Translations under genes and position numbers: made by a program | Origin: Mesorhizobium sp. SARCC-RB16n | GTDB lineage: Bacteria; Pseudomonadota; Alphaproteobacteria; Rhizobiales; Rhizobiaceae | NCBI RefSeq assembly: GCF_008520305.1 | Contig: NZ_ML703270.1 | Location: forward strand, 228,895 to 292,894 | DNA length: 64,000 nt | Direction: 5' to 3' | The notes under the pieces: generated by a model | Seen by the model: the letters and a program-made list of their open reading frames with translations, nothing else | Told to the model about the DNA's origin: nothing | Databases searched by the model: none | Shown: positions 801-19,073 of the stretch, piece by piece | How positions within the stretch are numbered: the first letter of the stretch is position 1 | How the letters are laid out: every line of letters starts with the position of its first letter

Positions 801-1744
801 CTCTGCTTCACCTTGTTGAGCGCCTTTACGTAGATGTTGGCGAGACCGAACACCGCGACGAAGAGGATGATGGCGAATGCCGAGGAATAGCCGGTGCGCC
901 AGCTCTCGAAAGCTTGCCGTTTCAGCGTGATCGAGGCAACCTCGGTCGTCGAGCCAGGTCCGCCACCGGTCAACAGGTTTACCATGTCGAACATCTTGAA
1001 GTTCTCGATGCCGCGAAACAGCACCGCCAGCATGATGAACGGCAGCGCCATCGGCAGCGTGATCGACCAGAACTGCCGCCAGTTGGAGGCGCGGTCGACC
1101 TCGGCCGCCTCATAGATGTATTCGGGGATCGAGCGCAGGCCGGCGAGGCAGATCAGCATCACGTAAGGCGTCCACATCCAGGTGTCGACGATGACGATCG
1201 CCCACGGCGCGAGCTGCACGCTGCCCAGCATCTCGAAGGAGGAAGGCGGCACGCCTGTGAAAAAGGCGACGATGTAATTGAAGAGGCCGGTCTGGGGTTG
1301 GTACAGGAAACGCCAGAAATTGCCGACCACGGCGGGCGACAGCATCATCGGCACCAGGATGATGGTCGTCCAGAAGGCGTGGCCGCGGAACTTGCGGTCG
1401 ATCAGCCAGGCCAGCGTGAAGCCGATCACCGTCTGCAGCAGGATGGTCCAGAACACGAAATGCGCCGTCGTCTGCATGGCGATCCAGACATCCTGGTCGC
1501 CAAGGATGCGCTGGTAGTTGGCAAAGCCGAGGTTCTTTACAACCTCATTGGACCGGTTGGCGCGGTAGTTGGTGAACGACAGATAGATCGCCCAAAACAG
1601 TGGGAAGATGTTGATGGCGAGCAACAGAAGGATCGTCGGCGAGATGAACAGCCACGCCAGGCCCTTGTCGCTGATGCCGCGGACCTTGCGCGCCAACGGT
1701 TCCGGGGTCGCCCGGGCAGCGTTCTCCGCGGTCCGATTGAGCAT
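797..1744 (-). CDS. carbohydrate ABC transporter permease (MalF/UgpA-like)
   Basis: This is the first inner-membrane permease subunit of the sugar importer, with about six transmembrane helices and an EAA loop near EAAEVDRASNWRQFWSITLP. I chose the ATG at 1744 (MLNRTAENAARATPEPLARK). A longer reading from a GTG at 1822 would run through the strong hairpin at 1800-1829. The chosen start gives about 315 residues, normal for the family, with a purine-rich AGGAC upstream. It is the middle gene of the operon: binding protein, this permease, then the permease at 1-800 overlapping by ATGA. No ATP-binding subunit lies in the window; it may lie beyond position 1. Confidence 0.88.
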   Translation of the reverse strand: MLNRTAENAARATPEPLARKVRGISDKGLAWLFISPTILLLLAINIFPLFWAIYLSFTNYRANRSNEVVKNLGFANYQRILGDQDVWIAMQTTAHFVFWTILLQTVIGFTLAWLIDRKFRGHAFWTTIILVPMMLSPAVVGNFWRFLYQPQTGLFNYIVAFFTGVPPSSFEMLGSVQLAPWAIVIVDTWMWTPYVMLICLAGLRSIPEYIYEAAEVDRASNWRQFWSITLPMALPFIMLAVLFRGIENFKMFDMVNLLTGGGPGSTTEVASITLKRQAFESWRTGYSSAFAIILFVAVFGLANIYVKALNKVKQR

Positions 1745-1799
1745 GGTTAGTCCTGCTTCGGTCACTTGGGTCGTCTCTGTGATGGAATTTATCTGAACT

Positions 1800-1829
1800 G
1801 TGTCCCGTGCCAAGGGCGGCACGGGACAC
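1800..1829. promoter_or_regulatory. intercistronic hairpin after the binding-protein gene
   Basis: A perfect 12-bp inverted repeat (GTGTCCCGTGCC / GGCACGGGACAC) with a 6-nt loop lies between the stop of the solute-binding gene and the first permease start. Such stem-loops in binding-protein operons commonly stabilise the upstream mRNA or attenuate read-through, giving more binding protein than permease. There is no U-run, so it is probably not a complete terminator. The role is inferred from its position. Confidence 0.7.
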
Positions 1830-1852
1830 TCGGTCGTGGCTCGGGAGGAACC

Positions 1853-3181
1853 TTAAATCTTGCCGTCGTCCTGGAAGGTCGCTGTCCAGTCCTTCACCAG
1901 GCTGTCGAGCGCTTCCTGGGCGGTGCCCTGGTCGGCCACCACAAAGTCATGGACGCGCTTCTGCATCGCCTGCAGCAGAGTAGCGTAGCTCGGCTCCGCC
2001 CAGAAGTCCTTCACCATCTGCATCGATGCGAGGAAGTCAGGGGCGAAGGGCGCGCTTTTCGGGAAGGACGGGGCTTCCACCACTGCCTTCAGCGCCGAGT
2101 AGCCACCGATCTCCCACCACTTCTGCTGAACAGCCGGCTGGGCAAACCACTTGATGTATTTCAGTGCGGCGTCCTTGTGGTCCGAGTATGAGACCACCGA
2201 GATGCCCTGGCCGCCGAGCTGGGTGAAGTGCGCGTCCGGGCCGGCGGGGTTGGGGAAGAACCCGATCTTGTCGCCGCCGACATTCGGGTCCTTGTACAAG
2301 CCGGGGAAGAACGCGAACCAGTTCATCTGCATGGCCACCTGGCCTGACTTGAAGGCGTCAAGCCCTTCCGACATGTAGGCGTCGGTCATGCCCGGCGCGG
2401 TGCAGCACTTGTAGAGATCCTTGTAGAACTCCAGGCCCTTCACCGCGTCCGCCGAATTGACGAACCCCTTCATGTCGTATGGCTTCTTCGGATTCTCGTA
2501 TTGGAAGCCATAGTCATAGAGGACGTTTGTCACGCCCATGGTGATGCCTTCAGAGCCCCGTTCGGTGAAGATATAGGCGCCGTAGACCTTCTTGCCGTCG
2601 ATGTCGCGGCCCTGGAAAAACTTGGCGATGTCCTTGAGCTCGTCATAGGTCTTGGGCGGCGCCAGATCGCGCCCGTATTTCGCCTTGAACTCGGTCTGCA
2701 ATTCGGGCTTCGAGAACCAGTCCTTGCGATAGGTCCAACCGACCGCGTCGGCCATCGCCGGCAATGCCCAGTAGTTCGGTGTGTTCTTTGGCCACTCCGA
2801 ATAGCCCAGGACCGTCGCTGGCACGAAGTCGTCCATGCTGATCTTCTCCTTGTCAAAGAAGTCGTTCAGCTTGACGTAGTGGCCGTTCTCGGCGGCGCCG
2901 CCGATCCACTGGCTGTCGCCGATGATCAGGTCGCACAACTTGCCGTGTGAATTCAGCTCGTTGAGGAAGCGGTCGGCATAGTTGGTCCACGGCACGAACT
3001 CGAATTTCATGCCGATGTTGGTCTGCTTGGTGAAATCCTTGGAAAGTTCGACAAGCGCATTGGCCGGGTCCCAGGCGGCCCAGCACAGCGTCAGGTCTTC
3101 AGCGTGCGCGACACTCGAGGCGGCAGTCGACGCAGTAATCGCCGAGGCCAGTCCCAACGTCAGTTTCAAGCTCGATTTCAT
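1853..3181 (-). CDS. extracellular solute-binding protein of sugar ABC transporter
   Basis: This is a family-1 (CUT1-type) periplasmic binding protein of about 442 residues that delivers a carbohydrate to the two downstream permeases. The start at 3181 (MKSSLKLTLGLASAITASTA) is preceded by a strong GGGAGGAAGG ribosome site; a start eight codons upstream would put that site inside the gene. Residues 1-28 form a Sec signal peptide ending near AHA-E. The mature part has the aromatic-rich ligand-pocket character of the family (ALPAMADAVGWTYRKDWF; QMNWFAFFPGLY). Two cysteines are adjacent (YKCCTAPG). It is the first gene of the operon, behind the operator-like region at 3283-3320. The substrate is unknown; sugars or polyols are the usual ligands. 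Confidence 0.9.
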   Translation of the reverse strand: MKSSLKLTLGLASAITASTAASSVAHAEDLTLCWAAWDPANALVELSKDFTKQTNIGMKFEFVPWTNYADRFLNELNSHGKLCDLIIGDSQWIGGAAENGHYVKLNDFFDKEKISMDDFVPATVLGYSEWPKNTPNYWALPAMADAVGWTYRKDWFSKPELQTEFKAKYGRDLAPPKTYDELKDIAKFFQGRDIDGKKVYGAYIFTERGSEGITMGVTNVLYDYGFQYENPKKPYDMKGFVNSADAVKGLEFYKDLYKCCTAPGMTDAYMSEGLDAFKSGQVAMQMNWFAFFPGLYKDPNVGGDKIGFFPNPAGPDAHFTQLGGQGISVVSYSDHKDAALKYIKWFAQPAVQQKWWEIGGYSALKAVVEAPSFPKSAPFAPDFLASMQMVKDFWAEPSYATLLQAMQKRVHDFVVADQGTAQEALDSLVKDWTATFQDDGKI

Positions 3182-3282
3182 GCCTTCCTCCCATTTGTGA
3201 AACACGTCTGGATGACGGTCTCAAGAGCCCTCAAACCTCTCTCCTCAGAGGCCCAAACATGGCGGCGTCGTCCACCGCGGAT

Positions 3283-3320
3283 GTTTAGTAATTTGTTTAG
3301 TGATGCAATTTTTACTAAAC
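3283..3320. promoter_or_regulatory. operator-like inverted repeat upstream of the sugar ABC operon
   Basis: GTTTAGTAA (3283-3291) is repeated inverted as TTACTAAAC (3312-3320). A further direct copy, GTTTAGTGA, lies at 3295-3303, 12 bp (about one helical turn) from the first. TTTAGTAA-type half-sites resemble operators of ROK (NagC/XylR) repressors, which often control sugar ABC operons in rhizobia. It lies about 100 bp upstream of the binding-protein start, in a short AT-rich patch. No regulator gene is adjacent in the window. Confidence 0.6.
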
Positions 3321-3469
3321 AAGGCAAGCGAATTCGTTGCTGCGCCGCAACATGTTTGCGCCGGTGTCTGAAAACGTTGGGAAAAGCGCCGCGCGCCGGT
3401 CGGATGAACGCGGAGTGTGAAAACCCTGTTGGGCTGATTCGGATGCCGCCTCGGAGCGGCGTCCCGGGT

Positions 3470-4155
3470 TCAGTCGACCCGCTTGGTGCTCACCATCACC
3501 GTCCGGATCGGCGGCGCCGGCGGCAGCAGCGCGCGGATGTCGGCGAAGGGAAACATCGGCTCGAAGCGGAAGGCTTCGGCCCGCGAACCTTGCGCGCCGT
3601 TGCATTGGCCCGAGCGAAAAAGGTTCTGCGTCCGGGCGATATCGACGAAGCGATCCGGGTCCTGCGACTGGTGCATGCGGATCGCTTTGGCCTTGATGTC
3701 GGCATGGGCGGAAATATCGACATAGTGCGTCGGCGAGAAGCCGGTGCCACCCCATCGTGTCGGAGCACCGGAACCCCGAACGAAGCGGCGATGCGCACGC
3801 CGTCCGACAGCGCGCGGTGGTCGGCGTGATAGTCGTTGAGCGCGTGCGTGATCGCGAGATCCGGGCCGATCTCGCTTATCAGCGTTTTCAGCGCATCGAT
3901 CAGCGCGGCATCCGCCACCAGCCCGCCATCGGGAAAGTCGAGGAAGCGCAGCGTCGCCCCGAGCAATGCGGCCGCCGCCGTCGCTTCTTCACGGCGGACA
4001 CGAGCCAGAACGGCGGGATCGCTCTTGCCGCCCCTGGCACCATCGGTGGTCACGGCAAAAGTGAGTTCTGCGCCTTGCGCGGCATAGGCGGCCATCGTAC
4101 CGAACATGAAGATCTCGATGTCGTCGGGATGCGCACCGAGCGCCAGTATCTTCAA
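3470..4155 (-). pseudogene. PIG-L family deacetylase, disrupted by frameshift
   Basis: PIG-L/LmbE proteins are zinc-dependent N-acetyl-sugar deacetylases. The N-terminal part, from a TTG start at 4155 (LKILALGAHPDDIEI), has the metal-binding AHPDD motif and an ITHALNDYHADHRA segment. The reading frame then changes near 3745-3768, after GVPVL. In another frame the family-typical sequence resumes (TGFSPTHYVDISAHADIKAK, then MHQSQDPDRFVDIARTQ) and runs to the stop at 3470. A run of four G on the coding strand lies at the break. Either the gene is a recent pseudogene or the assembly has an error there. The start is preceded by GGGGAGAGAG. It is divergent from the EamA transporter, whose start is only 25 bp away. 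Confidence 0.75.
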
Positions 4156-4179
4156 CTCTCTCTCCCCGGAAATGAAAAC

Positions 4180-5070
4180 GTGACGAACGGAATCCTGCTC
4201 GCCCTGATCGCCTATGCAAGCTATTCGGGCAGCGATGCCGTTATCAAGAGCCTGGGCGGACAGTTCACGGTGTTCGAGATAGGCTTCTTCGCGACCTTGT
4301 TTGCCGGCTGTTTTCTGTTCTTCGCCCGGCCGGCGGGCGAACGCTGGCGCGATTTCTGGCGCATGAAGCGGCCTTGGGCCGTGCAGGCGCGGGCCTGGGC
4401 CGGCATCGCCTCGGGCGTGCTCAGCGTCTATTCCTTCACGCACATTCCGCTGGCTGAAGTCTACGCACTGATCTTCCTGGCGCCCTTGCTGGTCACCATC
4501 CTGTCGACCATCATCCTGAAGGAAAAAGTTGGTCCCTGGCGGTGGCTGGCCGTGGTCGCCGGCTTTGCCGGGGTGATGCTGGTGGTGCGGCCGGGTTTTC
4601 GTGAATTGAACCTCGGCCACCTCGCCGCCTTCGTGAATGCCTTCCTCGCCGCGACCAGCGTCATCCTGCTGCGGTCGTTAGCCCAGCAGGAAAAGCGCAC
4701 GTCGATGCTCGGCGTGCTTGTGGGCTATGGCCTGCTGTTCAACGGGGTCGCCGCCGCCGCTACCTCTTTCACCTTGCCGAACGCCATGCAGCTTGTCTGG
4801 CTTGCGATGGTGGGCGCCTTCACCGCAGGCGGACAATTGCTGCAGCTGCTCGCCGCCAAATATGCCCCCGCCAACCGGATCGCGCCGACGCATTATTCGC
4901 AGATCGTCTGGGCGGTGATCCTCGGCGCGTTGTTCTTCCAGGAATATCCGGATTGGCTGTCGCTGGTCGGCCTCGCGGTCGTCGGCGGATCCGGCCTGTT
5001 GACCATGGTGCGCGAGGAAGCGCGGCTGGGCACGGTGCGCTGGAATCCGTTCTCTCGCACCCGGCTTTGA
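4180..5070 (+). CDS. EamA/DMT-superfamily transporter
   Basis: This is an inner-membrane drug/metabolite-type exporter of about 296 residues with ten predicted helices in two EamA repeats (about residues 5-135 and 145-280). I chose the GTG at 4180 (VTNGILLALIAYASYSGSDA); the ATG 8 bp upstream opens a three-codon frame. A GGAAA lies about 10 nt before it. The second repeat contains the usual P-rich helix and an AAKYAPANRIAPTHYSQIVW segment. The substrate is unknown. It is divergent from the broken PIG-L gene and followed by hrpB on the same strand after 55 bp. Confidence 0.85.
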   Translation: MTNGILLALIAYASYSGSDAVIKSLGGQFTVFEIGFFATLFAGCFLFFARPAGERWRDFWRMKRPWAVQARAWAGIASGVLSVYSFTHIPLAEVYALIFLAPLLVTILSTIILKEKVGPWRWLAVVAGFAGVMLVVRPGFRELNLGHLAAFVNAFLAATSVILLRSLAQQEKRTSMLGVLVGYGLLFNGVAAAATSFTLPNAMQLVWLAMVGAFTAGGQLLQLLAAKYAPANRIAPTHYSQIVWAVILGALFFQEYPDWLSLVGLAVVGGSGLLTMVREEARLGTVRWNPFSRTRL

Positions 5071-11155: not shown

Positions 11156-11216
11156 GATGGCCTGCCCTAAAACGTGACCGCTGTTTCGACGCGAATGCAC
11201 TTTTCGGCGAATGTCG

Positions 11217-11390
11217 CGCCGCCCCTCATCTGCCTGCCGGCATCTTCTCCCCGTAAACGGGGCGAAGGGGCTGGCCGCAACCCCGCCACCTTTTCCGCAA
11301 TGTCGGCGATTGGCGAAATCCGCGACGAGAGCGTCCTTCTCCCCGTCGCTATACGGGGAGAAGATGCCGGCAGGCAGATGAGGGGCGGCG
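11217..11390. repeat. RIME-like element with perfect 37-bp inverted arms
   Basis: Positions 11217-11253 are the exact reverse complement of 11354-11390. The arms start with CGCCGCCCCTCATCTGCCTG. The interior carries further CTCCCCG/CGGGGAG palindromes. It lies between the convergent genes nhaA and mmcB and shows no open frame of its own. It is the best preserved of the four large repeats in the window and may fold as a terminator in both directions. Confidence 0.85.
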
Positions 11391-11431
11391 CCAGCATCTG
11401 ACAGTTGCGGGCGTCAATTTCAGGGCCGCGA

Positions 11432-11944
11432 CTACTCGCTCTCCCCCTCCAGCGCCGGCACCGCCACGCCCGCCAGCTCCGCCGCGAGCAGCCGCGCCGC
11501 GCCCGCACGCGCGATGCGCAACATCAGCGCCTTGCGCGTCGCCGCCGCCATGCGGTGCTCCGGCGCGTCGCGCAGGATTTCGGCGCCATAGCCGTCGGAA
11601 AGGATGAAGCCGCACTCGTCCGGAAAAATCTCCGCCGGCACACCGGGATGGGTGGCAAAGAAAAAACGGTCGGAATGCAGCCGATAATCCGGCCATTTGC
11701 GGTCGACGCGAAAATCCTCGATCGACGATTTGATCTCGATGATCCAGATATCGCCCTGCCGCGTCAGCGCCACGAGATCGGCGCGCCGGCCGGTGGCCAG
11801 CGACAGTTCAGGCAGCACATGCGCGCCCATCTGCATCAACAGCCGTTGCACGCCACGCCGCACCAGCATGGCACGCTCGGACTGGCGGCCGTCGATCAGA
11901 GGGTTCAGGGGAATCGGGGAGATGATTGGCATGGCAGGCATCAT
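11432..11944 (-). CDS. mmcB: MmcB family DNA repair protein
   Basis: MmcB is a predicted PD-(D/E)XK nuclease of the alphaproteobacterial DNA-damage response, tied in Caulobacter to translesion or mutagenic repair. The protein has 170 residues, the normal size. Likely catalytic residues are D56 (GRRADLVAL), E70 and K72 (IWIIEIKSS). Further family features are YRLHSDRFFFATHPGVP and ADGYGAEIL-like FILSDGYGAEIL. The IS1595 transposon inserted only 36 bp upstream of its start, so its native promoter has probably been displaced. A TATAAT box in the transposon end points toward this gene. Confidence 0.9.
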   Translation of the reverse strand: MMPAMPIISPIPLNPLIDGRQSERAMLVRRGVQRLLMQMGAHVLPELSLATGRRADLVALTRQGDIWIIEIKSSIEDFRVDRKWPDYRLHSDRFFFATHPGVPAEIFPDECGFILSDGYGAEILRDAPEHRMAAATRKALMLRIARAGAARLLAAELAGVAVPALEGESE

Positions 11945-11972
11945 GCCAGGTTTTGTTCACGGTTTGAACCTG

Positions 11973-11980
11973 CTTTTAGG
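11973..11980. repeat. left 8-bp target-site duplication (TTTTAGGC)
   Basis: TTTTAGGC directly abuts the left inverted repeat and is repeated directly after the right inverted repeat at 15428-15435. Eight base pairs is the duplication length known for IS1595-family elements. Confidence 0.9.
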
Positions 11981-12003
11981 CGGCGATTATATCGTTGACA
12001 AAC
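11981..12003. repeat. left terminal inverted repeat of the IS1595 transposon
   Basis: The repeat begins GGCGATTATATCGTTGACAA and is the exact reverse complement of 15405-15427. On the minus strand it contains TATAAT (11985-11990) pointing out of the element toward mmcB, with a TTTCCA 17 bp upstream (12008-12013). This is a possible weak outward promoter. Confidence 0.92.
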
Positions 12004-12098
12004 CTAGATGGAAAATAGGAATATGATCCTCGACAGGCCGGCCACTCCAATTCACGTCTGTGAGTCAATCCGTCGCACCATCTTAACCATTCCTTAAC

Positions 12099-12147
12099 CA
12101 TATGATTCTGTTATTGTTTTCCTCTGTACCGGAGGACGAATCATATG
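12099..12147. promoter_or_regulatory. inverted repeat spanning the 5' leader and start codon of the methyltransferase gene
   Basis: CATATGATTC (12099-12108) is repeated inverted as GAATCATATG (12138-12147). The second arm includes the ATG start codon (12145-12147), and the loop holds the ribosome site GGAGG (12131-12135). Each arm contains a GANTC site, the CcrM methylation target in alphaproteobacteria. The repeat could be an operator or an RNA hairpin that hides the start codon. Just upstream is a direct repeat, CTTAACCAT / CCTTAACCAT. Confidence 0.65.
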
Positions 12148-12738
12148 GACGCAACCTACAATCTTAACGGCGGTTTCAAGCCGACGATGAAAAGGTTCGC
12201 TGATCTCGCGGGGCCTGACTATTTCCCGACGCCAGCCTGGGCCACCCACGCCCTCATGGAAAACGAGACGTTCACCGGAGAAATCTGGGAGTGCGCGTGC
12301 GGGGATGGCGCTATGTCACGGGTGCTGGAGACGAGGGGCAATCCGGTACGCAGTTCGGATTTATTTGATCGCGGGTTCGGACAGTCCGGCATTGACTTCA
12401 ACACCGCCAAGACGCCTGCGGATAACATTGTCACTAACCCGCCCTACAACAGCGCGGAAAGCTTTGTGCGTTCTGGCGTGAAACTAGCCCGCAACAAGTT
12501 CGCGTTGCTTCTCAGGCTGGCCTTTTTGGAAGGGGCAAATCGAGCCAATACCATTTTCTCCGAATGCCCGCCGGCCCGCGTGTGGGTTTTCAGTGAACGG
12601 ATCACATTCTACCCAGCCGGAGCGGTGCAAGCCGGTAGCGGAACCACTGCCTACGCGTGGTTTGTCTGGGACAAAACCACCCCATCCAAGACAGAGTTGA
12701 AGTGGTTCCAACCCGGCTACAAGGGGAAGTATCGCTAG
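12145..12738 (+). CDS. SAM-dependent DNA adenine-type methyltransferase (passenger gene)
   Basis: This protein of 197 residues has class I methyltransferase signatures. Motif I is at about residues 50-58 (CACGDGAMS). The acidic residue after strand 2 is SSDLFDRG. The catalytic motif IV is NPPY at 98-101, typical of N6-adenine methyltransferases. It is short, with no separate target-recognition domain, like phage or mobile-element orphan enzymes. The ATG follows GGAGG by 9 bases. It converges with the gene at 12740-13045, the stop codons being a base apart. The target sequence is unknown. It could protect the element, modify host regulation, or be the modification half of a minimal restriction system. 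Confidence 0.8.
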   Translation: MDATYNLNGGFKPTMKRFADLAGPDYFPTPAWATHALMENETFTGEIWECACGDGAMSRVLETRGNPVRSSDLFDRGFGQSGIDFNTAKTPADNIVTNPPYNSAESFVRSGVKLARNKFALLLRLAFLEGANRANTIFSECPPARVWVFSERITFYPAGAVQAGSGTTAYAWFVWDKTTPSKTELKWFQPGYKGKYR

Positions 12739-12739
12739 T

Positions 12740-13045
12740 TTATATGGCGTTGCGAGCCTGTTGGTGAACCCTGCCGGCGGCAGTTATCCGAAGGCCACCG
12801 TCTATTTGCTCTAAAAAGCCGCGATAGATAAAGTTTCTGCTGGAGCCCTTATGGGACGTAATGTTGCGCACACGCTGCTCCCAAATAGCTTCATTAGGTC
12901 TCGACACTGAACCCTGATAATCACCTGCCGTGAGAGCAATCCGGTTTGGTATCTCATGAATGAGCGTACCTATGGGCGCTTCACCGTTTGGGCGTCCAAC
13001 CAAAATATCTTCCACAATCTCTGAAAGCCGCCGTTCTGTTGTCAT
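12740..13045 (-). CDS. small protein with winged-helix-like pattern, function unknown
   Basis: The protein has 101 residues. I do not recognise a named family with certainty. The C-terminal half (WEQRVRNITSHKGSSRNFIY, then GFLEQIDGGLRITAAGR) resembles the N-terminal winged-helix domain of Mrr-like restriction proteins, in which a W-E-x-R-V-R helix is followed by L-x-x-x-x-x-G-x-x-x-I-T-x-A-G-R. No nuclease residues are present. It converges end to end with the methyltransferase gene, suggesting a functional or regulatory link. A run of AACCCTCCC on the plus strand just before its ATG gives a GGGAGG ribosome site. Confidence 0.6.
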   Translation of the reverse strand: MTTERRLSEIVEDILVGRPNGEAPIGTLIHEIPNRIALTAGDYQGSVSRPNEAIWEQRVRNITSHKGSSRNFIYRGFLEQIDGGLRITAAGRVHQQARNAI

Positions 13046-13123
13046 GCTCTAACCCTCCCAAAGTAATGGAAGGGGACAATACGGCGCACCGATAAAGAGT
13101 CAACAGACGCAGCGCTTGACTGA

Positions 13124-13342
13124 TCAGCGTTTTTCTTGCTCGCGCTTACGTCGAACCAGTTCCTTTATCTGCTCGTCGGTGAGCTTCGGCGCGTGGGCGA
13201 TCTTGTTGACCACGGCATCGAATGCCGCGTCGGATTCGTCCGTTTCCAGTTCGCGCGCCTTCTCGACAAACTTCTGGTACTGCCGGTCTTTCGCTGACTG
13301 GGTTTCCAGTTCGCGGGCGGCTTTGCGGGACTTGTCAGGCAT
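13124..13342 (-). CDS. small charged protein, third gene of the toxin-antitoxin-like operon
   Basis: The protein has 72 residues, mostly charged and helical (MPDKSRKAARELETQSAKDR at the start). No known domain is recognised. Its C-terminus (VVNKIAHAPKLTDEQIKELV then RRKREQEKR) is clearly related to the short peptide at 17478-17612 in the neighbouring segment. Its ATG overlaps the 3' end of the putative toxin gene by 8 bp, so the two are translationally coupled. An in-frame start further upstream would lie deeper inside the toxin gene and is less likely. Confidence 0.6.
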   Translation of the reverse strand: MPDKSRKAARELETQSAKDRQYQKFVEKARELETDESDAAFDAVVNKIAHAPKLTDEQIKELVRRKREQEKR

Positions 13343-13643
13343 TGGCCTCTGGTGCCTCTGGCGCAAAGGCAACGGCGTGAACAGTGACGTCGTTGTCATC
13401 GTAGGAATATAGAACCCACACCTCTTTCGTCTCAGCTAGATCATTGCCGGCTACGACGAAAAGCAGAAACTTTGTCGGTTCATGCGCGTGACGAGGTAGG
13501 CCTTTCTCTGGCATTCGGCAAATAAGCCACTCAATGCCTTGCCATTGTTCGTCGAAGCGACCGTTAGCAACAGCGTGCGCGTCAACGAAGACCTGCGCAC
13601 GCTGATCGAGTACGACAGTACGGTAGGTCGGCCAAGAAGCCAT
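13335..13643 (-). CDS. putative RelE/ParE-like toxin
   Basis: The protein has 102 residues, with a pattern like small RelE-fold ribonuclease or gyrase toxins: W-x-x-L near GIEWLICRMPEKGLPR, then a C-terminal beta-hairpin EVWVLYSYDDNDVTVHAVAF. It starts 4 bp after the stop of the DUF4065/Panacea-type gene, the order found in PanAT toxin-antitoxin pairs. Toxin activity is inferred from context and from this weak pattern; catalytic residues cannot be assigned. It may instead be an uncharacterised protein of the same operon. Confidence 0.5.
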   Translation of the reverse strand: MASWPTYRTVVLDQRAQVFVDAHAVANGRFDEQWQGIEWLICRMPEKGLPRHAHEPTKFLLFVVAGNDLAETKEVWVLYSYDDNDVTVHAVAFAPEAPEANA

Positions 13644-13647
13644 GTTG

Positions 13648-14181
13648 TTATGCCGCCACTGCTTCCACTTCGGCAGCCATCGAAGCGGCCCAAGTCTTAA
13701 CGTCTTCCGTCACCTCTCCTAGTTCGGAAGCAAGGGTGGCGTAAAGGGGAATTTCTTCACCTTCGGCGGCTGCGTCCCAAATAACGTCGTGCGTCATCTC
13801 GCTTACAGCATTCGCCGTATAGCCACACACGGCATCCAAAATTGACCGCGCCAGAGCCCGGTCGTCCTCCGAAAGTGTTTCGACGTTCGGATTTGCCAGC
13901 GAAATGTACTTGCGAACATCGTATTGGAATTCGGGTTCCTGGATAAGGATTTTGCCATCATCCTTTAGTTCCCGAAGGGTCGCCAAGATTTGAGCTGGCA
14001 CTGGTCCTTTCTTGCGCTTTACGTAAGACTCCCCCGTCACAGACAAACCGTGCATTTTGTATGACAGGACATCTGTGTACCAAAGCGTCTTATTGAGTCG
14101 TATCGCCCCCAGCCTATGGGGGTGATCTCGGCACTCGTGCACAATGAAGTGTACCAGCGCCTTAAATTTTGCGGTCGCCAT
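13648..14181 (-). CDS. DUF4065/Panacea-domain protein, probable antitoxin
   Basis: The protein has 177 residues. The N-terminal half matches the Panacea (SocA-like, DUF4065) fold: IRLNKTLWYTDVLSYKMHGL (about 28-47), then YVKRKKGPVPAQIL (53-66). Panacea domains neutralise many unrelated toxins, and proteolytic-adaptor roles are also known. The C-terminal half (about 90-177) is acidic and helical and could be the partner-binding part. The gene leads a three-gene operon with a RelE-like gene and a small charged protein. Its start is preceded by AGGAGG, with a promoter and palindrome at 14200-14263, fitting autoregulation. Confidence 0.75.
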   Translation of the reverse strand: MATAKFKALVHFIVHECRDHPHRLGAIRLNKTLWYTDVLSYKMHGLSVTGESYVKRKKGPVPAQILATLRELKDDGKILIQEPEFQYDVRKYISLANPNVETLSEDDRALARSILDAVCGYTANAVSEMTHDVIWDAAAEGEEIPLYATLASELGEVTEDVKTWAASMAAEVEAVAA

Positions 14182-14199
14182 GACAACCTCCTGTGATTC

Positions 14200-14222
14200 T
14201 TCGCCCTCATTTTGAGGGCGAA
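14200..14222. promoter_or_regulatory. palindromic operator-like site of the Panacea operon
   Basis: TTCGCCCTCA (14200-14209) pairs with TGAGGGCGAA (14213-14222) around a 3-nt spacer. It lies between the predicted promoter and the start of the DUF4065 gene. Its position suits an autoregulatory operator, or an RNA hairpin in the leader just before the AGGAGG ribosome site. Confidence 0.65.
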
Positions 14223-14234
14223 TCCGTTAACGCA

Positions 14235-14263
14235 TATATAGTGGGTGCTTGACAATGGGGCAA
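14235..14263 (-). promoter_or_regulatory. predicted promoter of the Panacea operon
   Basis: On the minus strand, TTGCCC (14258-14263) is followed after 17 bp by TATATA (14235-14240). It reads toward the DUF4065 gene, whose ATG is at 14181. Match to the sigma-70 consensus is moderate. Confidence 0.5.
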
Positions 14264-14410
14264 GTTTGCACTATGGGCGCCCCCGAGTCTGTAAAGTAGG
14301 CGTTTACGCAATAAATTCAGCTACTTGCGTTTTCTTCGCCTTTTTTTGTTCTCGACAAGTTCCAGATCCAGTTGCACAGGTTTCCTGCGAAATGAGCGCT
14401 TCGCGTCAAC

Positions 14411-15358
14411 TCACGCCCTATACGTGAGGCGCTTGCCAGCGGCACCCTTCAAAGCAATGAGCGAACGAACGTTATCTTCAACGCCCAAGGCCGAACGGTT
14501 CGAATAGCGGAAGTCGAACTCTGCCAGATAGCGGTGCAGATGGTGTTCAGCGCAATGCTGGTAGACGCCCTTCATGCCGCGCTTGAAGATCGAATAGTAG
14601 CCTTCCACGGTGTTCGTGTGGATGGTCTTTGCGCCTTCGTAACGGACATACTCATCCTTGGAATGCACTACGGTATCGTGCGAGGCGAACTCGCCGCTTA
14701 GATAGCGATAGCCGCCCCACTCGTCAGTCATCATGGCGGTTTCCTTGGCGATGTTGGCGCGAACGATCGGCATGACGGTCTTCACCTTGGCGCTGTCGAT
14801 ATGGAAGGAACGGGCAATGCCGCCGCGCTCTACCAAGGTCAAGACAGTGTTCTTGTGAGCGCCACCGCCGCGACGGACTTCGGTGCCGGCAAGGCGACCG
14901 ATATACGTCTCGTCAATTTCAACGGTCTTGCCATTGCCGCCCATAGGCGAAAGCGAGCCAGACGCCATTGCAAGGCGAATGCGGTGAGCCAGAAACCAAG
15001 CCGCCTTGTAGGTGATCTCCAAGGTGCGGTGCAACTGATGGGCGCTGATACCTTTCTTGGACGAACACATGAGGTGAATAGCCTGTAGCCAGGTGGTGAG
15101 CGGCAAATGGCTTTCTTCCAAGACCGTGCCCATACGAACCGTGAACTGGCCCTTGCAGTCACGACACTTGTAGAGGCCGTGGCGCTCGACGCCGTGCGGG
15201 TTTTTCTTCGAAGGCTTGGTGCGGACGCCTACCAGCTTGTACGGCTTTTCCATCGAACCGCAGTGATGGCAGACCGGACCATACGGCCAAAGCATACCCT
15301 CGACATGTTCGAAAGCAGCGGCTTCGTCGCGAAAGTGAGGGCGGGAGAGGACGGACAT
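14411..15358 (-). CDS. IS1595 family (ISXO2-like) transposase
   Basis: The transposase has 315 residues. An N-terminal zinc ribbon has C30/C33 and C65/C68 (PVCHHCG; LYKCRDCKG). The catalytic domain has D149 (VEIDETYIGR), D212 (MMTDEWGGYRYL) and the family's third position around N249/E252 (HTNTVEGYYSIFKRG). The frame is intact with no internal stop. It reads inward from the right end, its start being 46 bp from the inverted repeat. It should act on the 23-bp ends at 11981 and 15405, and possibly in trans on the related end at 15436. Confidence 0.95.
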   Translation of the reverse strand: MSVLSRPHFRDEAAAFEHVEGMLWPYGPVCHHCGSMEKPYKLVGVRTKPSKKNPHGVERHGLYKCRDCKGQFTVRMGTVLEESHLPLTTWLQAIHLMCSSKKGISAHQLHRTLEITYKAAWFLAHRIRLAMASGSLSPMGGNGKTVEIDETYIGRLAGTEVRRGGGAHKNTVLTLVERGGIARSFHIDSAKVKTVMPIVRANIAKETAMMTDEWGGYRYLSGEFASHDTVVHSKDEYVRYEGAKTIHTNTVEGYYSIFKRGMKGVYQHCAEHHLHRYLAEFDFRYSNRSALGVEDNVRSLIALKGAAGKRLTYRA

Positions 15359-15404
15359 GGCGAAGGTTCCTAAGTTATTGGAATCTTTCTACCTCTCTCG
15401 GTTT

Positions 15405-15427
15405 GGTTTGTCAACGATATAATCGCC
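15405..15427. repeat. right terminal inverted repeat of the IS1595 transposon
   Basis: The repeat begins GGTTTGTCAACGATATAATC and is the exact reverse complement of 11981-12003. It is followed immediately by the second copy of the target duplication. Confidence 0.92.
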
Positions 15428-15435
15428 TTTTAGGC
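15428..15435. repeat. right 8-bp target-site duplication (TTTTAGGC)
   Basis: This is the direct copy of 11973-11980. It separates the right end of the first transposon from the left-end-like sequence of the second segment at 15436, so the insertion landed exactly 8 bp from that older end. Confidence 0.88.
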
Positions 15436-15458
15436 GGCGATTATATGGTTGACAAACC
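15436..15458. repeat. left-end-like terminal repeat of the second segment
   Basis: It begins GGCGATTATATGGTTGACAA and differs from 11981-12003 at one position (G for C at the 12th base). It is in the same orientation as the left end of the first element. Confidence 0.85.
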
Positions 15459-15545
15459 CAAAGTGGGGATATGGTTCTCGACAGGCCGGCGCTCACGAAC
15501 GATTAAGACCTTCCACGTATCTCAAGGCGCCTACAGGGGGCGAGC

Positions 15546-15797
15546 GTGGCCGAAAAGAGTAAAATTGCGGAAGCGGTCATAAAGTATCTTTTGATCGCAC
15601 AGATGCTTGGTGCGGGCGCTTTCATTGCCTTTTGGCTAAGGAACGGGAAGGCCACCATCCCAAAGCACGGCGGCGGCTGGCATGTCCTTGATCGGATTCA
15701 AGACCCGTACCTCTATTGGTTTCTACTGATCGCAATTTCATGGGCCGGCGTTGTGCTCCCGCTCTGGTATATCTACCAGGCCCCGCCGAAGCGCTAG
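15546..15797 (+). CDS. small two-helix membrane protein
   Basis: The protein has 83 residues and starts at a GTG preceded by AGGGGG. Two hydrophobic segments are visible: about residues 12-31 (AVIKYLLIAQMLGAGAFIAF) and about 54-76 (YLYWFLLIAISWAGVVLPLWY). They are separated by a polar loop with GGGWHVLDRIQDP. No family is recognised. It is the first gene of the second segment and points toward the Beta-family gene 105 bp downstream. Small membrane proteins beside nuclease-like defence genes can act as effectors, but nothing here shows that directly. Confidence 0.6.
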   Translation: MAEKSKIAEAVIKYLLIAQMLGAGAFIAFWLRNGKATIPKHGGGWHVLDRIQDPYLYWFLLIAISWAGVVLPLWYIYQAPPKR

Positions 15798-15902
15798 GCG
15801 CTACCCAGCCGTGGGGGGATGGCACTATTTTCGACAGATGATCCGCTATCCTAGATCAATTTCAAATGTTACGTTCCCCAAAATAAATACTTGGGGGATC
15901 AA

Positions 15903-16907
15903 ATGCCATATCGTTATATGCCCGTAGTGCGCACTAAAGCTGGTGAGGCGGATGCGCTTGGGAACTTGTCGCCGCCAGCAAGAGCGCGAGTGTTCCCCAT
16001 CATAAGACTGGGCGGGACAGTTCCGGCTACTTTTTTGCCAAAGATGATTGCCAACGCTGCTGGTTTTCCAATCGCTCTCGACGGTATCCACAACTTTACG
16101 GTGACAGGCAGCGCTGCTGTGTACAACGCCCTGTTCAATGGCCTTGGTGCGGGTGGAGTTCCTGTCATACCAACTTTGTCAGTTCGGGCTCAACCGGCTT
16201 ACAATACAGCAGCGGCAGCATTGGTGGGCACGTATGCTCCAGGTTTCGTTTTGCATGTGCCTTTGGCTGACTTACCGTTCCTCGCAGGATGGGTGGCCGC
16301 TGTTCCCGCATGGAATCCAAACCAAATTGACATTCTTATCGATGTTGCAGGAGTGGCCGAACAAGCGCCAATTCCGTATGCAAACTATGTTGCCCATACC
16401 ATAAATGCATCTTTGGCCGCTGGTCATCCTTGGCGGTCGGTAACCCTTCATTCTTGGAGCGCGCCAAAGGATCACGGTCCTTTGAATCCAGGCCGAAATG
16501 ATGTCCCCCGCTTAGACTGGCAGATTTGGCAACTTGTTAGAGCGCTTGTCCCGTTCCAACTCGACTATTCAGATTCGGGACACGTCCATCCCTCGCTTGA
16601 CGAAGTGCCCGGATACGCAATGGCCAATGCTACGGTAAGCGTTCGATATACCATCGATGACCAATGGATTATCCACAAAGGCGTCAAGACGAGCGGTGCA
16701 AACGGTATCGACATGGGGACGCAATATAGAGGCCACGCACAAACCTTGCTGGCAGACCCCGCGTTTGGCGGCCTAGCGATACCTAGTTGGGGTGACGGGC
16801 GTATCCAGCATTACGCTATCACAGCCGGTGGCGCCGGGGGGCGGGGGCAGTGGGCCGCTTTGCTGCTTAACCGCCATATCGCGCACGTCGCCGACAGACT
16901 GCCTTAA
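15903..16907 (+). CDS. Beta-family protein (PF14350-like)
   Basis: The protein has 334 residues. Its N-terminus, PYRYMPVVRTKAGEADALGN then PPARARVFPIIRLGG, has the layout of Beta-protein family members (Y-x-P-V-x-x-x-K-x-x-E-x-x-A-L, then a P-I/L-I/L strand). Repeated strand-helix units follow (VPVIPTLSVRA; IDILIDVAGVA; FQLDYSDSGH). The family has no established activity that I know of; members occur in phages and accessory islands and are linked to sce7725/sce7726 proteins. I chose the ATG at 15903, preceded by GGGGGATCAA, over a TTG at 15891. A 6-bp stem, CCCCAA/TTGGGG (15876-15896), overlaps this ribosome site. The 3' end overlaps the opposite-strand sce7726 gene by 135 bp. Confidence 0.72.
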   Translation: MPYRYMPVVRTKAGEADALGNLSPPARARVFPIIRLGGTVPATFLPKMIANAAGFPIALDGIHNFTVTGSAAVYNALFNGLGAGGVPVIPTLSVRAQPAYNTAAAALVGTYAPGFVLHVPLADLPFLAGWVAAVPAWNPNQIDILIDVAGVAEQAPIPYANYVAHTINASLAAGHPWRSVTLHSWSAPKDHGPLNPGRNDVPRLDWQIWQLVRALVPFQLDYSDSGHVHPSLDEVPGYAMANATVSVRYTIDDQWIIHKGVKTSGANGIDMGTQYRGHAQTLLADPAFGGLAIPSWGDGRIQHYAITAGGAGGRGQWAALLLNRHIAHVADRLP

Positions 16908-17462
16908 CCACGCGGTTCTCGACTTCAGGGCGCGCCGGACCTCGTCACTCAGGTCCGAAAATGATAGCTCCCCGGCGAGCCTCTGATGGATAGCTTTTGC
17001 AGGCTTACTTCGCCAGCCATCAGCGAGCCCATGTTCCTCCAGCACAATCAGGGCTTCCTCTTTCCAGAGGAGGCCCGCTATCAGGTCGGGATCTGGCGAG
17101 GGATTTCTGGACCCGCATTTGTCGCACTGTAGAACAACCCCATCGTTGGTTTGTTCTGCGACCATAACGCCCCACCAGCTTGGAATAATGTCGGTTGCCT
17201 TGGCTGCGTGCCGCTGCCCAACGACAAGCGTCACCTGATCGAATACGCGACTATAGATATCCGCCTGTACCCGTAGCCGTTGGAGCGTATCGCTGTCGCT
17301 CTTAAGTTCGAACCCCGATAGCTCGCCATTGATTACGGCAAGGTCGACGCGAACGGAGCCCGACCACACGCCCATCTCTTCAACGATGCGAGTATCTATA
17401 TCGTCTCTGTGTAAGGCCTCTAGATGATTTCTCACCGCCAGCCTGACATCCTTATCACGCAT
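16773..17462 (-). CDS. sce7726-family protein, PD-(D/E)XK nuclease-like
   Basis: The protein has 229 residues. The core VRVDLAVINGELSGFELKSD (38-57) carries D40, E52 and K54, the pattern of PD-(D/E)XK nucleases. Then come SDTLQRLRVQADIYSRVFDQ and VTLVVGQRH, and a WWG motif (95-98) diagnostic of the sce7726 family. A CDKC pair (about 113-116) may bind metal. The last 45 codons lie antisense to the end of the Beta-family gene. sce7726 proteins are usually found next to sce7725/Beta proteins, so the pair is the expected partnership in an unusual convergent layout. The function is uncharacterised; a nuclease-based defence role is inferred. Confidence 0.8.
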   Translation of the reverse strand: MRDKDVRLAVRNHLEALHRDDIDTRIVEEMGVWSGSVRVDLAVINGELSGFELKSDSDTLQRLRVQADIYSRVFDQVTLVVGQRHAAKATDIIPSWWGVMVAEQTNDGVVLQCDKCGSRNPSPDPDLIAGLLWKEEALIVLEEHGLADGWRSKPAKAIHQRLAGELSFSDLSDEVRRALKSRTAWLRQSVGDVRDMAVKQQSGPLPPPPGATGCDSVMLDTPVTPTRYR

Positions 17463-17477
17463 TTCTTTGATACTCGG

Positions 17478-17612
17478 TCAGGGCTTGGTCTGTTCGCGCT
17501 TCTGGTGCTGCACCAGCTTCTTTATCTGTTCGCTAGTAAGCTTCGGTGCCTTTGCGATTTTCTGCACGACGGCCTCCTCAATCTGCGGCTTCGGCTGCTT
17601 GGGTTCAATCAC
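17478..17612 (-). CDS. short peptide sharing a motif with the first transposon
   Basis: I propose a 44-residue peptide from a GTG at 17612 preceded by AGGAC. Its sequence from AVVQKIAKAPKLTSEQIKKL to KREQTKP aligns with the C-terminus of the 72-residue protein at 13124-13342. A longer frame to 17774 is open but would translate through the perfect hairpin at 17693-17729, so the shorter form is preferred. It ends 15 bp before the sce7726 start on the same strand, so it is probably the first gene of that transcript. Function unknown. Confidence 0.5.
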   Translation of the reverse strand: MIEPKQPKPQIEEAVVQKIAKAPKLTSEQIKKLVQHQKREQTKP

Positions 17613-17692
17613 AGCATGTCCTGCTTGAGTTTTGAGTGGGTTTCGTAGCGGCCAACCCTTGCGCTGCTTGTTCGTTCCAGCGACTCGTGTAT

Positions 17693-17729
17693 AAGGGCTG
17701 TGTGGGGTTCGTGGCCCCACACAGCCCTT
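17693..17729. other. perfect 15-bp hairpin
   Basis: AAGGGCTGTGTGGGG (17693-17707) and CCCCACACAGCCCTT (17715-17729) are exact reverse complements around a 7-nt loop. It lies between the minus-strand peptide/sce7726 genes and the plus-strand HARE-HTH gene, in about 294 bp without another gene. The downstream T-run is short, so a terminator, an operator or a structured RNA are all possible. The rest of this stretch shows no other clear signal. Confidence 0.75.
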
Positions 17730-17906
17730 TAACCTCAACCCAGCCCGGTAGGCCAAGAGACGAGGAGGTTGCAAAGAAGATGACGGTCAGAATAGCAGGA
17801 GGGGGTCCACGACCCCTGATGTCCTACTGAAAGCCGCCAGTCGGCTGCTTCGCAGTCAGTATCGACGGCTTCCGTATAGCACCACTAAGCTCTGGGAGCA
17901 ACAAAA

Positions 17907-18524
17907 ATGTCTGTGGAATCAATGGCCACTGACCCGTACGAGGTTGTGCTTAACGATCTGCGGGCCAAGAAGGCTCAAATAGAACAAGCCATTAGCGCCA
18001 TCGAAGCGATCCGGGGCGGAATGCCATCCGGCTCTTATTCGATGGCGGCTTCGGTCGCGCCAACCGGGCAAAATTCGGACATTGATTCGCCCGGAGCCTT
18101 CTTGGGAATGTCTATTGTAGACGCTGCTAAAAAGTTGCTGGCGGCCAAGCGTCAACCGTTGCGGAATCCCGACATTGCAGCCGCGTTCAAGCGTGGCGGC
18201 CTTGCAATGAACTCAAAGGATGCCGTTAACACGATTGGGTCTGTCCTTACGCGTCGCGCCAATGATGTTGGCGATCTCGTGAAGGTTGATCGCGGCACTT
18301 GGGGTCTAAAAGAATGGTATCCGAACAGGAGTTTCAAGAAGGGCGTTCCGGTCGAGAAGCTAGAGGCGGCTTCCGCAGCCGCATCAGGTGAGGAACCGCT
18401 TGGCGATACGCGCATGCTTTCCTTGGTTCAGATTGCCAAGATTCAGGCCGCAGGCGTGACTGAGGATGAGCTTAGGGCAATGCCGAAGGCTGATGCTGAT
18501 GCGTTTTTGGATTTGCTCGGATGA
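17907..18524 (+). CDS. HARE-HTH-like winged-helix protein with coiled-coil N-terminus
   Basis: The protein has 205 residues. Residues 10-36 look like a coiled coil (NDLRAKKAQIEQAISAIEAI). After a linker, residues about 65-140 resemble the HARE-HTH domain (HB1/ASXL/restriction endonuclease): AFLGMSIVDAAKKLLAAKRQ, then LRNPDIAAAFKRGGL, VNTIGSVLTRR and VKVDRGTWGLKEWY. Such domains occur in chromatin proteins and bacterial restriction systems and are proposed to read DNA modification. The C-terminal tail (IAKIQAAGVTEDELRAMPKA) looks like a small helical module. It lies in the second segment beside the sce7726/Beta pair and could be its regulator or DNA-targeting subunit; that is inference. Confidence 0.65.
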   Translation: MSVESMATDPYEVVLNDLRAKKAQIEQAISAIEAIRGGMPSGSYSMAASVAPTGQNSDIDSPGAFLGMSIVDAAKKLLAAKRQPLRNPDIAAAFKRGGLAMNSKDAVNTIGSVLTRRANDVGDLVKVDRGTWGLKEWYPNRSFKKGVPVEKLEAASAAASGEEPLGDTRMLSLVQIAKIQAAGVTEDELRAMPKADADAFLDLLG

Positions 18525-18556
18525 AGACGTCGGGATCATCGACCCGGCTTCTTTTG

Positions 18557-18579
18557 GGCGATTGTATATTTGACAACCC
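18557..18579. repeat. diverged third copy of the IS1595-type left end
   Basis: It begins GGCGATTGTATATTTGACAA and matches 15436-15458 at 19 of 23 positions, in the same orientation. It sits 23 bp before the stop of the deaminase gene and marks the right border of the island. Confidence 0.65.
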
Positions 18580-18602
18580 CAACGTTCGGTGGCGAAGAAC
18601 CA

Positions 18603-19073
18603 CTACCGCTGCCAGAAGCCACGGTGCACCGAGACCAGTTCGTCCTCAATTTCGGGGAAGGGGCCGTGAACCTCGATCTTCTTCTGTCCAGAACCGAGCA
18701 CAACGCGCGAGGACAAGCTCATCGTCGGGTTTTCGGGATGGTCGGCAGTTAGCGCGAGAAGCTCGGTCTCCTCGAAGCCATAGACCAGCCGGCCGATATT
18801 CGCCCAGTAGAGCGTTCCGCTGCACATCGCACAGGGCTCGCCGGTTGAGACCAGCGTGCATGTCCAGAGAAACTCCGGCGAATAGGCTGCCGCCGCGCGC
18901 CGGGCAAGTTCGGTCTCGGCGTGATGAACAGTGTCGATATTGCCTTGGCGCATGAGGATCGCGTCGTTGGGGCCGACCAGCACCGCGCCGAACGGATGAT
19001 GGCCGTGCGCGGCAGCCTCGCGAGCGATCGCATCGGCGGCGCGAAGGTGGGCCAGCATCTGGTCGCGGGTCAT
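18603..19073 (-). CDS. nucleoside/guanine deaminase family protein
   Basis: This zinc-dependent cytidine/deoxycytidylate-type deaminase has 156 residues. Zinc and catalytic residues are clear: H51-A52-E53 (HHAETELARR) and P80-C81-A-M-C84 (STGEPCAMCSG). The length and the ending (DELVSVHRGFWQR) fit the guanine deaminase/nucleoside deaminase branch rather than the tRNA deaminase TadA. The precise substrate is not certain. The 3' end abuts the right border of the mobile island but is intact. Confidence 0.85.
   Translation of the reverse strand: MTRDQMLAHLRAADAIAREAAAHGHHPFGAVLVGPNDAILMRQGNIDTVHHAETELARRAAAAYSPEFLWTCTLVSTGEPCAMCSGTLYWANIGRLVYGFEETELLALTADHPENPTMSLSSRVVLGSGQKKIEVHGPFPEIEDELVSVHRGFWQR

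Follow-up and report, generated by a model that had tools for sequence, protein, structure and literature searches.

Two of the genes described here have their closest characterised relatives in gop-beta-cII, a system of satellite P4 that protects E. coli against lambda and P1 (PMC9122126). In P4, gop is toxic without beta, and the two are thought to be toxin and antitoxin (PMC9122126). The PD-lambda-2 system requires PD-lambda-2C, a protein related to a P4 antitoxin, for its defence against lambda-vir (PMC9519451). We have analysed a 64,000-nucleotide stretch of Mesorhizobium sp. SARCC-RB16n (contig NZ_ML703270.1, positions 228,895 to 292,894; this whole stretch is the window), in which a cassette at 15436-18602 carries a beta-family gene and an sce7726-family gene. 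Judging by their profile matches, these are homologues of beta and cII of gop-beta-cII. The initial annotation of this DNA, which saw a four-gene defence cassette between IS1595-type ends, stated that no characterised activity was known for the combination. That statement misses the beta and cII components of a system protective against lambda and P1 (PMC9122126) and also the third protein of PD-lambda-2, given that the window beta protein matches PD-Lambda-2_C (PMC9519451). We consider it quite probable that the cassette is the cargo of a decayed transposon inserted next to an SOS operator, and that this cargo includes beta and sce7726 as an anti-phage module.

The two genes converge and overlap:

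15903-16907, plus strand: beta-family protein with a TIM-barrel-like model (PF14350, E 1.7e-34)
16773-17462, minus strand: sce7726/P4 cII-family protein of PD-(D/E)XK fold (NF033832, E 5e-45; PADLOC 'cll', a label we read as cII, E 5.4e-29)
16773-16907: tail-to-tail overlap of the two genes, 135 nt by their coordinates

The beta protein also matches the PADLOC profiles PD-Lambda-2_C (E 2.6e-17) and beta (E 1.4e-5), and P4 cII, itself annotated as sce7726 family, matches sce7726 by tblastn (E 1e-13). The residues D40, E52 and K54 that had been singled out in the sce7726 protein are invariant in 17 of 17 aligned sce7726 proteins. Its proposed nuclease fold is supported by a structure model that has a restriction-endonuclease-like core with D..E-x-K, mostly at a confidence score (pLDDT) above 90, and whose best VIA matches share the PD-(D/E)XK fold. 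No solved structure matches sce7726 by sequence, beta gives three weak matches of this kind (best E 0.0058) that we take as chance, and Foldseek alone was weak for both models. The expected beta/sce7725-type partner does adjoin sce7726, and the overlap between them encodes approximately residues 185-229 of the latter, of which 187-229 have a pLDDT below 50.

To place this arrangement in context, profile scans were made of 91 loci, namely 8 phage or plasmid records (L001-L008, hand-picked from sce7726/beta search matches), 18 genome loci and 65 viral contigs. A pair was counted when beta lay no more than 2.5 kb from sce7726, centre to centre. The queries came from convergent pairs, and the search itself did not require beta. 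Beta stands beside sce7726 in 68 of the 91 loci and is convergent with it in every one (68/68). The genes overlap in 65 of these pairs, by 4 to 162 nt (median over all 68, 44 nt), and 19 of the 23 loci without beta are weaker sce7726 matches (E >1e-50). The overlap is not read in one constant phase: the pairs fall into groups of 46, 13 and 6 of 65, and what is conserved is therefore tail-to-tail closeness and not phase. This strict layout, which extends from E. coli P4 to Gordonia/Mycolicibacterium phages and Rhizobiales, would mark one functional unit. Among named relatives, those whose sce7726 genes are closest belong to Mesorhizobium and Aminobacter, and no relative of the window beta protein was found in the viral contigs.

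What lies upstream of beta is far less constant. In P4 (NC_001609), gop is followed by beta, and cII comes next on the opposite strand. In L028 and L032, Pfam matches place a protein with HTH and IrrE-peptidase domains, beta and sce7726 in a row. Elsewhere there are short hydrophobic open reading frames (ORFs) or nothing convincing. These upstream calls were single ORFs picked by length and are unreliable as such. As the upstream gene varies, we regard beta and sce7726 as the module, with an exchangeable third gene. Look-alike rows of HTH-peptidase, beta and sce7726 occur in L029-L031, L033 and L034, some with a further small upstream gene, and the layout of L028-L034 seems to join PD-lambda-2-like and gop-beta-cII-like arrangements.

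By analogy with these systems, a defence role for beta and sce7726 is likely. The functional cargo unit would be these two genes, with sce7726 as the nuclease effector (its activity is predicted from the fold and the D/E/K residues) and beta as a TIM-barrel partner that may sense or restrain it, as the toxicity of P4 gop without beta suggests. It is rather unlikely, in our estimation, that the pair acts as an addiction-type module that stabilises the transposon and not as an anti-phage system. Such a role would suit the other cargo of these elements, some of which is toxin-antitoxin-like (Panacea, PIN, PIN_10/DUF5615, DUF433), as well as the toxin/antitoxin view of P4 gop and beta (PMC9122126). 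However, many pairs on viral contigs lack a convincing third gene ahead of beta, and both the P4 and the PD-lambda-2 systems protect against phages (PMC9122126, PMC9519451). Addiction and defence are, in any case, not mutually exclusive. Among publications that name sce7726, none concerns defence by its title, and searches on the beta family returned mostly or only unrelated beta proteins. A Leptospira island is described as containing IS1595, sce7726 and sce7725 together (PMC12457778), and an sce7725 protein is among those correlated with aminoglycoside resistance, with no explanation offered (PMC8203672).

The setting of the pair is a low-GC island at 11.97-18.6 kb that adjoins a DNA-repair gene. 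The lower GC content reported for the cassette is confirmed by 1-kb windows, which have a GC fraction of 0.54-0.58 over 12-19 kb versus 0.59-0.72 elsewhere in the window. The features that define the insertions are the following:

11432-11944, minus strand: mmcB, PD-(D/E)XK-type DNA-repair gene (phmmer to 3dnx, E 8.7e-27)
11955-11969: SOS/LexA-type box GTTCACGGTTTGAAC (GTTC-N7-GAAC), strict in 79 of 81 mmcB loci
11974-11981: left copy of the target duplication TTTTAGGC, 8/8 match with the right copy
11982-15427: element 1, a complete ISXO2/IS1595-type transposon with passenger genes, 3446 bp (inverted ends, 8-bp duplication, internal transposase)
14411-15358, minus strand: IS1595-type transposase of element 1 (PF12762, E 5.6e-31; PF12760, E 4.2e-10)
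15428-15435: right copy of the element 1 target duplication TTTTAGGC, perfect over 8 bp
15436-15458, plus strand: left end of element 2, starting directly after the right duplication of element 1
15546-15797, plus strand: 83-aa hydrophobic (membrane) ORF with no PADLOC, NCBIfam or PHROG match and no significant Pfam match
17478-17774, minus strand: short ORF, second copy of smC (a 65-nt stretch is 74% identical to 13155-13219)
17907-18524, plus strand: HARE-HTH protein (PF05066, E 3.1e-8)
18557-18579, plus strand: third left-type end, a direct copy (72% match)

Element 1 has the transposase, inverted ends and 8-bp duplication of the IS1595 family, and its ends (11982-12004 and 15405-15427) are a true inverted pair, complementary at 23 of 23 positions. 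The window has four IS1595-type end copies in all. Those that the initial annotation placed at 15436 and 18557 are present, but they are direct copies and so not the two ends of one element, which rules out the cassette as a transposon with inverted ends at these positions. The copy at 18557-18579 is probably an older solo-end footprint. Within 15436-18602 we found neither an inverted right end nor a transposase match, and 15436-18556 is the left part of an ISXO2/IS1595-type transposon without its transposase and right end. This element 2 holds, in order, the left end, the membrane ORF, beta, sce7726, the smC copy and HARE-HTH. All five ORFs were found again where they had been placed, the HARE-HTH identity of the third protein holds, and the mobility proposed for the genes is borne out, the unit itself having been drawn wrongly.

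Two relatives within the genus suggest what element 2 once was. In G004 (L044), an 85% identical HARE-HTH gene and smC lie inside a complete element (548-4181) with a transposase and an 8/8 duplication, and in G106 (L080) relatives of sce7726 (88%) and beta (84%) lie inside a complete transposase-bearing element. Because these relatives sit in complete elements, element 2 was most likely complete as well and would have lost its transposase and right end by deletion.

The insertion site itself proved to be shared by many strains. Our survey set was 99 genomes of the host genus, of which 96 have mmcB (matches 86-99% identical); 80 of these loci were used here, one more (G070) was taken separately and 15 were left out. 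The 80 loci and the window make up 81 mmcB loci, all oriented alike, one of which (L111) is short. Elements with an 8/8 duplication occur at the same mmcB site, 12 nt from the conserved box, in 15 of the 81 loci, and two more (L083, L094) have a 7/8 duplication. A transposon end lies no more than 30 nt from the GAAC of GTTCACGGTTTGAAC in 61 loci and exactly 12 nt from it in 55, compared with 3 of 4050 in a random-position control. The transposase is found on either strand, and 40 of the 61 end-bearing loci have no transposase match in the examined stretch. Tandem ends with the same 8 nt are also present in an additional locus, L120. In 61 genomes, transposase copies of at least 74% identity lie within 5 kb of mmcB in 13 of 15 cases, and copies of 57% identity or less (six loci with seven copies were taken in) lie elsewhere, as does the second G106 copy (72%). 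MmcB is SOS-regulated in Caulobacter, where the SOS box is GTTC-N7-GTTC (PMC9578287).

Elements at this site tend to stack. In 9 of the 15 mmcB elements with an 8/8 duplication another end follows the duplication, and L052 and L074 have an end-like sequence there that is one base out of step. One might therefore propose that the transposon recognises copies of its own end and that the SOS box is incidental. This seems very improbable to us, given that no end follows in L044, L066, L105 or L106, that the relatives L081, L102 and L113 have a site without an end, and that the comM-type and other sites away from mmcB (see below) have the box and no second end. Sites without ends rule out end recognition as the sole target rule.

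A very improbable reading, in our view, is that of the initial annotation, in which the membrane protein, beta, sce7726 and HARE-HTH make up one four-gene defence system. The genes are adjacent and lie between transposon ends, and P4 gop, which has hydrophobic N-terminal stretches, likewise lies upstream of beta in the same direction. However, the 99 genomes include 10 with sce7726 (E <= 1e-5), 9 with the small membrane gene (E <= 1e-3) and 1 with HARE-HTH (E <= 1e-5), and no genome carries two of the three. In the loci with the closest pairs (L019, L020 and L021) no relative of the membrane gene or of HARE-HTH was found, and the HARE-HTH gene of G004 belongs to a complete transposon without the pair. 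Co-occurrence only at this locus, named by the initial annotation as an argument against its own proposal, is what the sample yields for the four-gene set and does not apply to the pair. The anti-phage role is probable for beta and sce7726, and the extension of that role to four genes is unsupported. Within the cassette only these two genes form a module, as judged from the loci compared. The independent occurrence of HARE-HTH, smC and the membrane gene leads us to regard them as probable accessory genes of the transposon or separate cargo.

The spacing between box and end is not peculiar to mmcB. Eight elements at other sites (L117, L118, L119, L213, L215, L216, L218 and L219) were fetched by transposase and not by box. 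A strict GTTC-N7-GTTC box lies exactly 12 nt outside an end in L117, L119, L213, L215, L218 and L219; in L118 the distance is 13 nt, and in L216 the box has one half-site mismatch. L213, L215, L218 and L219 come from other genera. When the distance was allowed to slide over 21 elements, a strict box was found at 12 nt in 6, at 13 nt in 1 and at 35-39 nt in 3, and at no other distance from 0 to 40. The three with the longer distance (L123, L125 and L126) are distant copies without the 12-nt rule. L123 is situated ahead of an SRAP gene (Pfam E 9.1e-60) and L125 ahead of a similar-looking one. L118, which belongs to the group with 12-13 nt spacing, seems to occupy the opposite side of the same operator.

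Six elements (L117, L215, L218, L219, L226 and L230) have the box on one side and, on the other, a gene with the Pfam domains ChlI and Mg_chelatase, which we take to be comM/yifB. The box is present in 29 of 30 related comM upstream regions, and in 23 of these it precedes the gene by 92-98 nt. The pattern of box, 12 nt and end was matched in 7 of 146 genomes versus 0 of 146 for the reversed control. L226, L228 and L230 were found by a box-containing pattern and were excluded from the spacing evidence and included in the trees; L214, L225, L237 and L240 have no determinable end pair, and one of the searches covered loci of the best 30 matches. In a first transposase tree one clade of 31 rows comprises 28 box elements, two rows with no box and one row without a call, and in a second tree the clade has 27 rows, 25 with a box (three of these pattern-found). 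That insertion is untargeted, and intergenic insertions near SOS genes are simply tolerated, is hardly credible: the examined sites away from mmcB do lie outside long ORFs and three distant elements are also near a box, but the spacing of 12 nt hardly varies.

Several observations weigh against the interpretation of the cassette as cargo of an operator-adjacent transposon with a two-gene defence module. A prediction was stated beforehand and 12 further copies were then examined, 11 from other families and one from G106; the box was found in only 1 of the 10 copies with clear ends (L233). Nine of these ten, L233 included, branch outside the 27-row clade, and the rule would therefore be limited to the clade. 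The sole positive case thus lies outside it, and L231, which is within the clade and has clear ends, has no box, so that one in-clade case failed. L221 has no box even though it is beside two box elements, and L224, also without a box, is inside the clade in the first tree and not in the second. Among the 21 elements of the sliding comparison, 14 lack a strict box at either 12 or 13 nt, although 7 of these are distant copies of approximately 52% identity or less. Furthermore, the mmcB box is GTTC-N7-GAAC and not the Caulobacter direct repeat, so that LexA binding there is putative and the naming of the box draws on the analogy with Caulobacter GTTC-N7-GTTC (PMC9578287). The past transposase of element 2 is likewise conjectured from the comparison with G004 and G106. 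Finally, a defence role of beta and sce7726 without gop is argued by analogy, and we found no report in the literature of activity of the pair without gop.

Given these exceptions, the box rule appears from the trees to hold for most of one clade and not for the IS1595 family in general. The ends, the duplications, the 12-nt spacing, the stacking, the clustering of the rule on the transposase tree and the variety of cargo can all be read from the compared sequences. From these we propose that copies of the clade mostly insert one end 12 bp (4 nt plus the 8-bp duplication) from an SOS/LexA-type operator, in this case that of mmcB. New copies would land between the operator and older copies, such that elements stack. 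Element 1 would have landed next to element 2, at its left end; element 2 presumably lost its transposase and right end later. The target might be chosen through the operator, with bound LexA serving as a tether or through direct recognition of the operator sequence.

We offer more tentatively the idea that operator-bound LexA serves as the landing beacon for this clade and that the elements home to SOS promoters; we would not yet rate this as the likelier outcome. If true, the combination of ends and operator could keep the host gene working at SOS promoters, and anti-phage cargo would be placed beside SOS control, so that DNA damage would be coupled to the way defence genes spread or are expressed. 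If a clade of transposons did choose transcription-factor operators as targets, this would be a new answer to the question of how mobile DNA finds safe ground, and it would explain the growth of a defence-type gene cluster beside a DNA-repair gene. The rule of box plus 4 nt plus 8-bp duplication is simple and testable, and the layout of the pair brings the unsolved function of beta and cII within reach of direct tests. Among the matches listed in literature searches on LexA/SOS and on IS1595 there was no report of operator-targeted transposon insertion. While beta and sce7726 are a new member of a known defence pair, their setting, a putative operator-directed insertion of defence-carrying IS1595-type transposons, is unexpected.

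The cargo of these elements is diverse, as is apparent already from the passenger genes of element 1:

12145-12738, plus strand: DNA methyltransferase-like cargo (phrog_799, E 3.5e-58)
13124-13399, minus strand: smC, a small ORF (...KLTDEQIKELVRRKREQEKR) with relatives in many such elements
13648-14181, minus strand: SocA/Panacea antitoxin-like cargo (PF13274, E 2.9e-13)

We scanned 75 cargo proteins, namely 68 of 93 listed ORFs and 7 from the window. Pfam matches were DUF3800 (7), Panacea (4), beta (3), NYN (2), HARE-HTH (2), PIN (1, in L114) and PIN_10/DUF5615 (1, in L228), with single matches to DUF433, Rap1a and another transposase type. PADLOC matches were cII-type and beta-type (3 each, window included), HEC-09 (2), PDC-M04A (2) and DUF3800_VII (2). 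The HEC-09 match in L093 is the same protein as one read as NYN. Two cargo proteins of L105 and L218, once considered as HEC-09, gave no match on re-scan and were dropped. A BstA-type protein is encoded at L047:1062-2039, plus strand (PADLOC E 1.7e-116), and the element in L047 also has the transposase closest to that of element 1 (89% identity). In several elements a protein with a coiled coil and a winged helix (seen by eye; Pfam weak, sequences mostly dissimilar) stands beside the transposase, and the HARE-HTH protein looks like one of these. Both smC copies (13124-13399 and 17478-17774) recur in many elements with a charged C-terminus, and smC may be a transposition helper.

Other observations concern the surroundings. 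The far border of the island is a deaminase gene, named by eye (18603-19073, minus strand), which in many genomes (L037-L116) is on the other strand or outside the examined interval, which makes the stretch between mmcB and MerR variable. A perfect inverted repeat of 40 bp, with a loop of 96 nt, lies at 11216-11391, past the 3' end of mmcB. A box-like GTTC-N7-GTTC at 14348-14362, within element 1 near the end of the transposase gene, may be due to chance. L042 (1-3060, oriented) looks as though a segment had been flipped: the left duplication reads TTTTTAAC, and its exact reverse complement, GTTAAAAA, occupies the 8 nt that follow the right end. The transposon end has an outward TATAAT-like hexamer, for which no matching -35 element was found by eye; our guess is that it might replace the mmcB promoter.

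Among described systems, gop-beta-cII shares with the window a beta-family gene and an sce7726-family gene (cII in P4) arranged tail to tail, as well as a small gene that precedes beta on the same strand. It differs in that the small gene of the window (15546-15797) has no gop match in PADLOC, NCBIfam, PHROG or Pfam, that P4 cII is 28% identical to the window sce7726 over 182 residues, that the window genes overlap by 135 nt and those of P4 are separated by a 27-nt gap, and that the window pair is transposon-borne and the P4 system satellite-borne. PD-lambda-2 has a P4-related third component, and the window beta matches PD-Lambda-2_C. In contrast, no HigB-like or HigA-peptidase gene is present among the scanned proteins of 15436-18602, and the available passages describe PD-lambda-2 with three components, sce7726 not being named among them (PMC9519451). 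The elements also resemble the IS1595 'transporter IS' (insertion sequences with passengers) in their DDE domain, zinc ribbon, inverted ends, 8-bp duplications and passenger genes (PMC3129680, citing Siguier et al. 2009). Unlike these, they have the 12-nt spacing from an SOS box in one clade and defence-type cargo, and we found no report of either in the literature. Site-specific transposons of the Tn7 type use a conserved chromosomal site beside a host gene, as the elements at mmcB do. Here, however, the putative beacon resembles the operator of a transcription factor, the element can be inserted in either orientation and several genes serve as targets.

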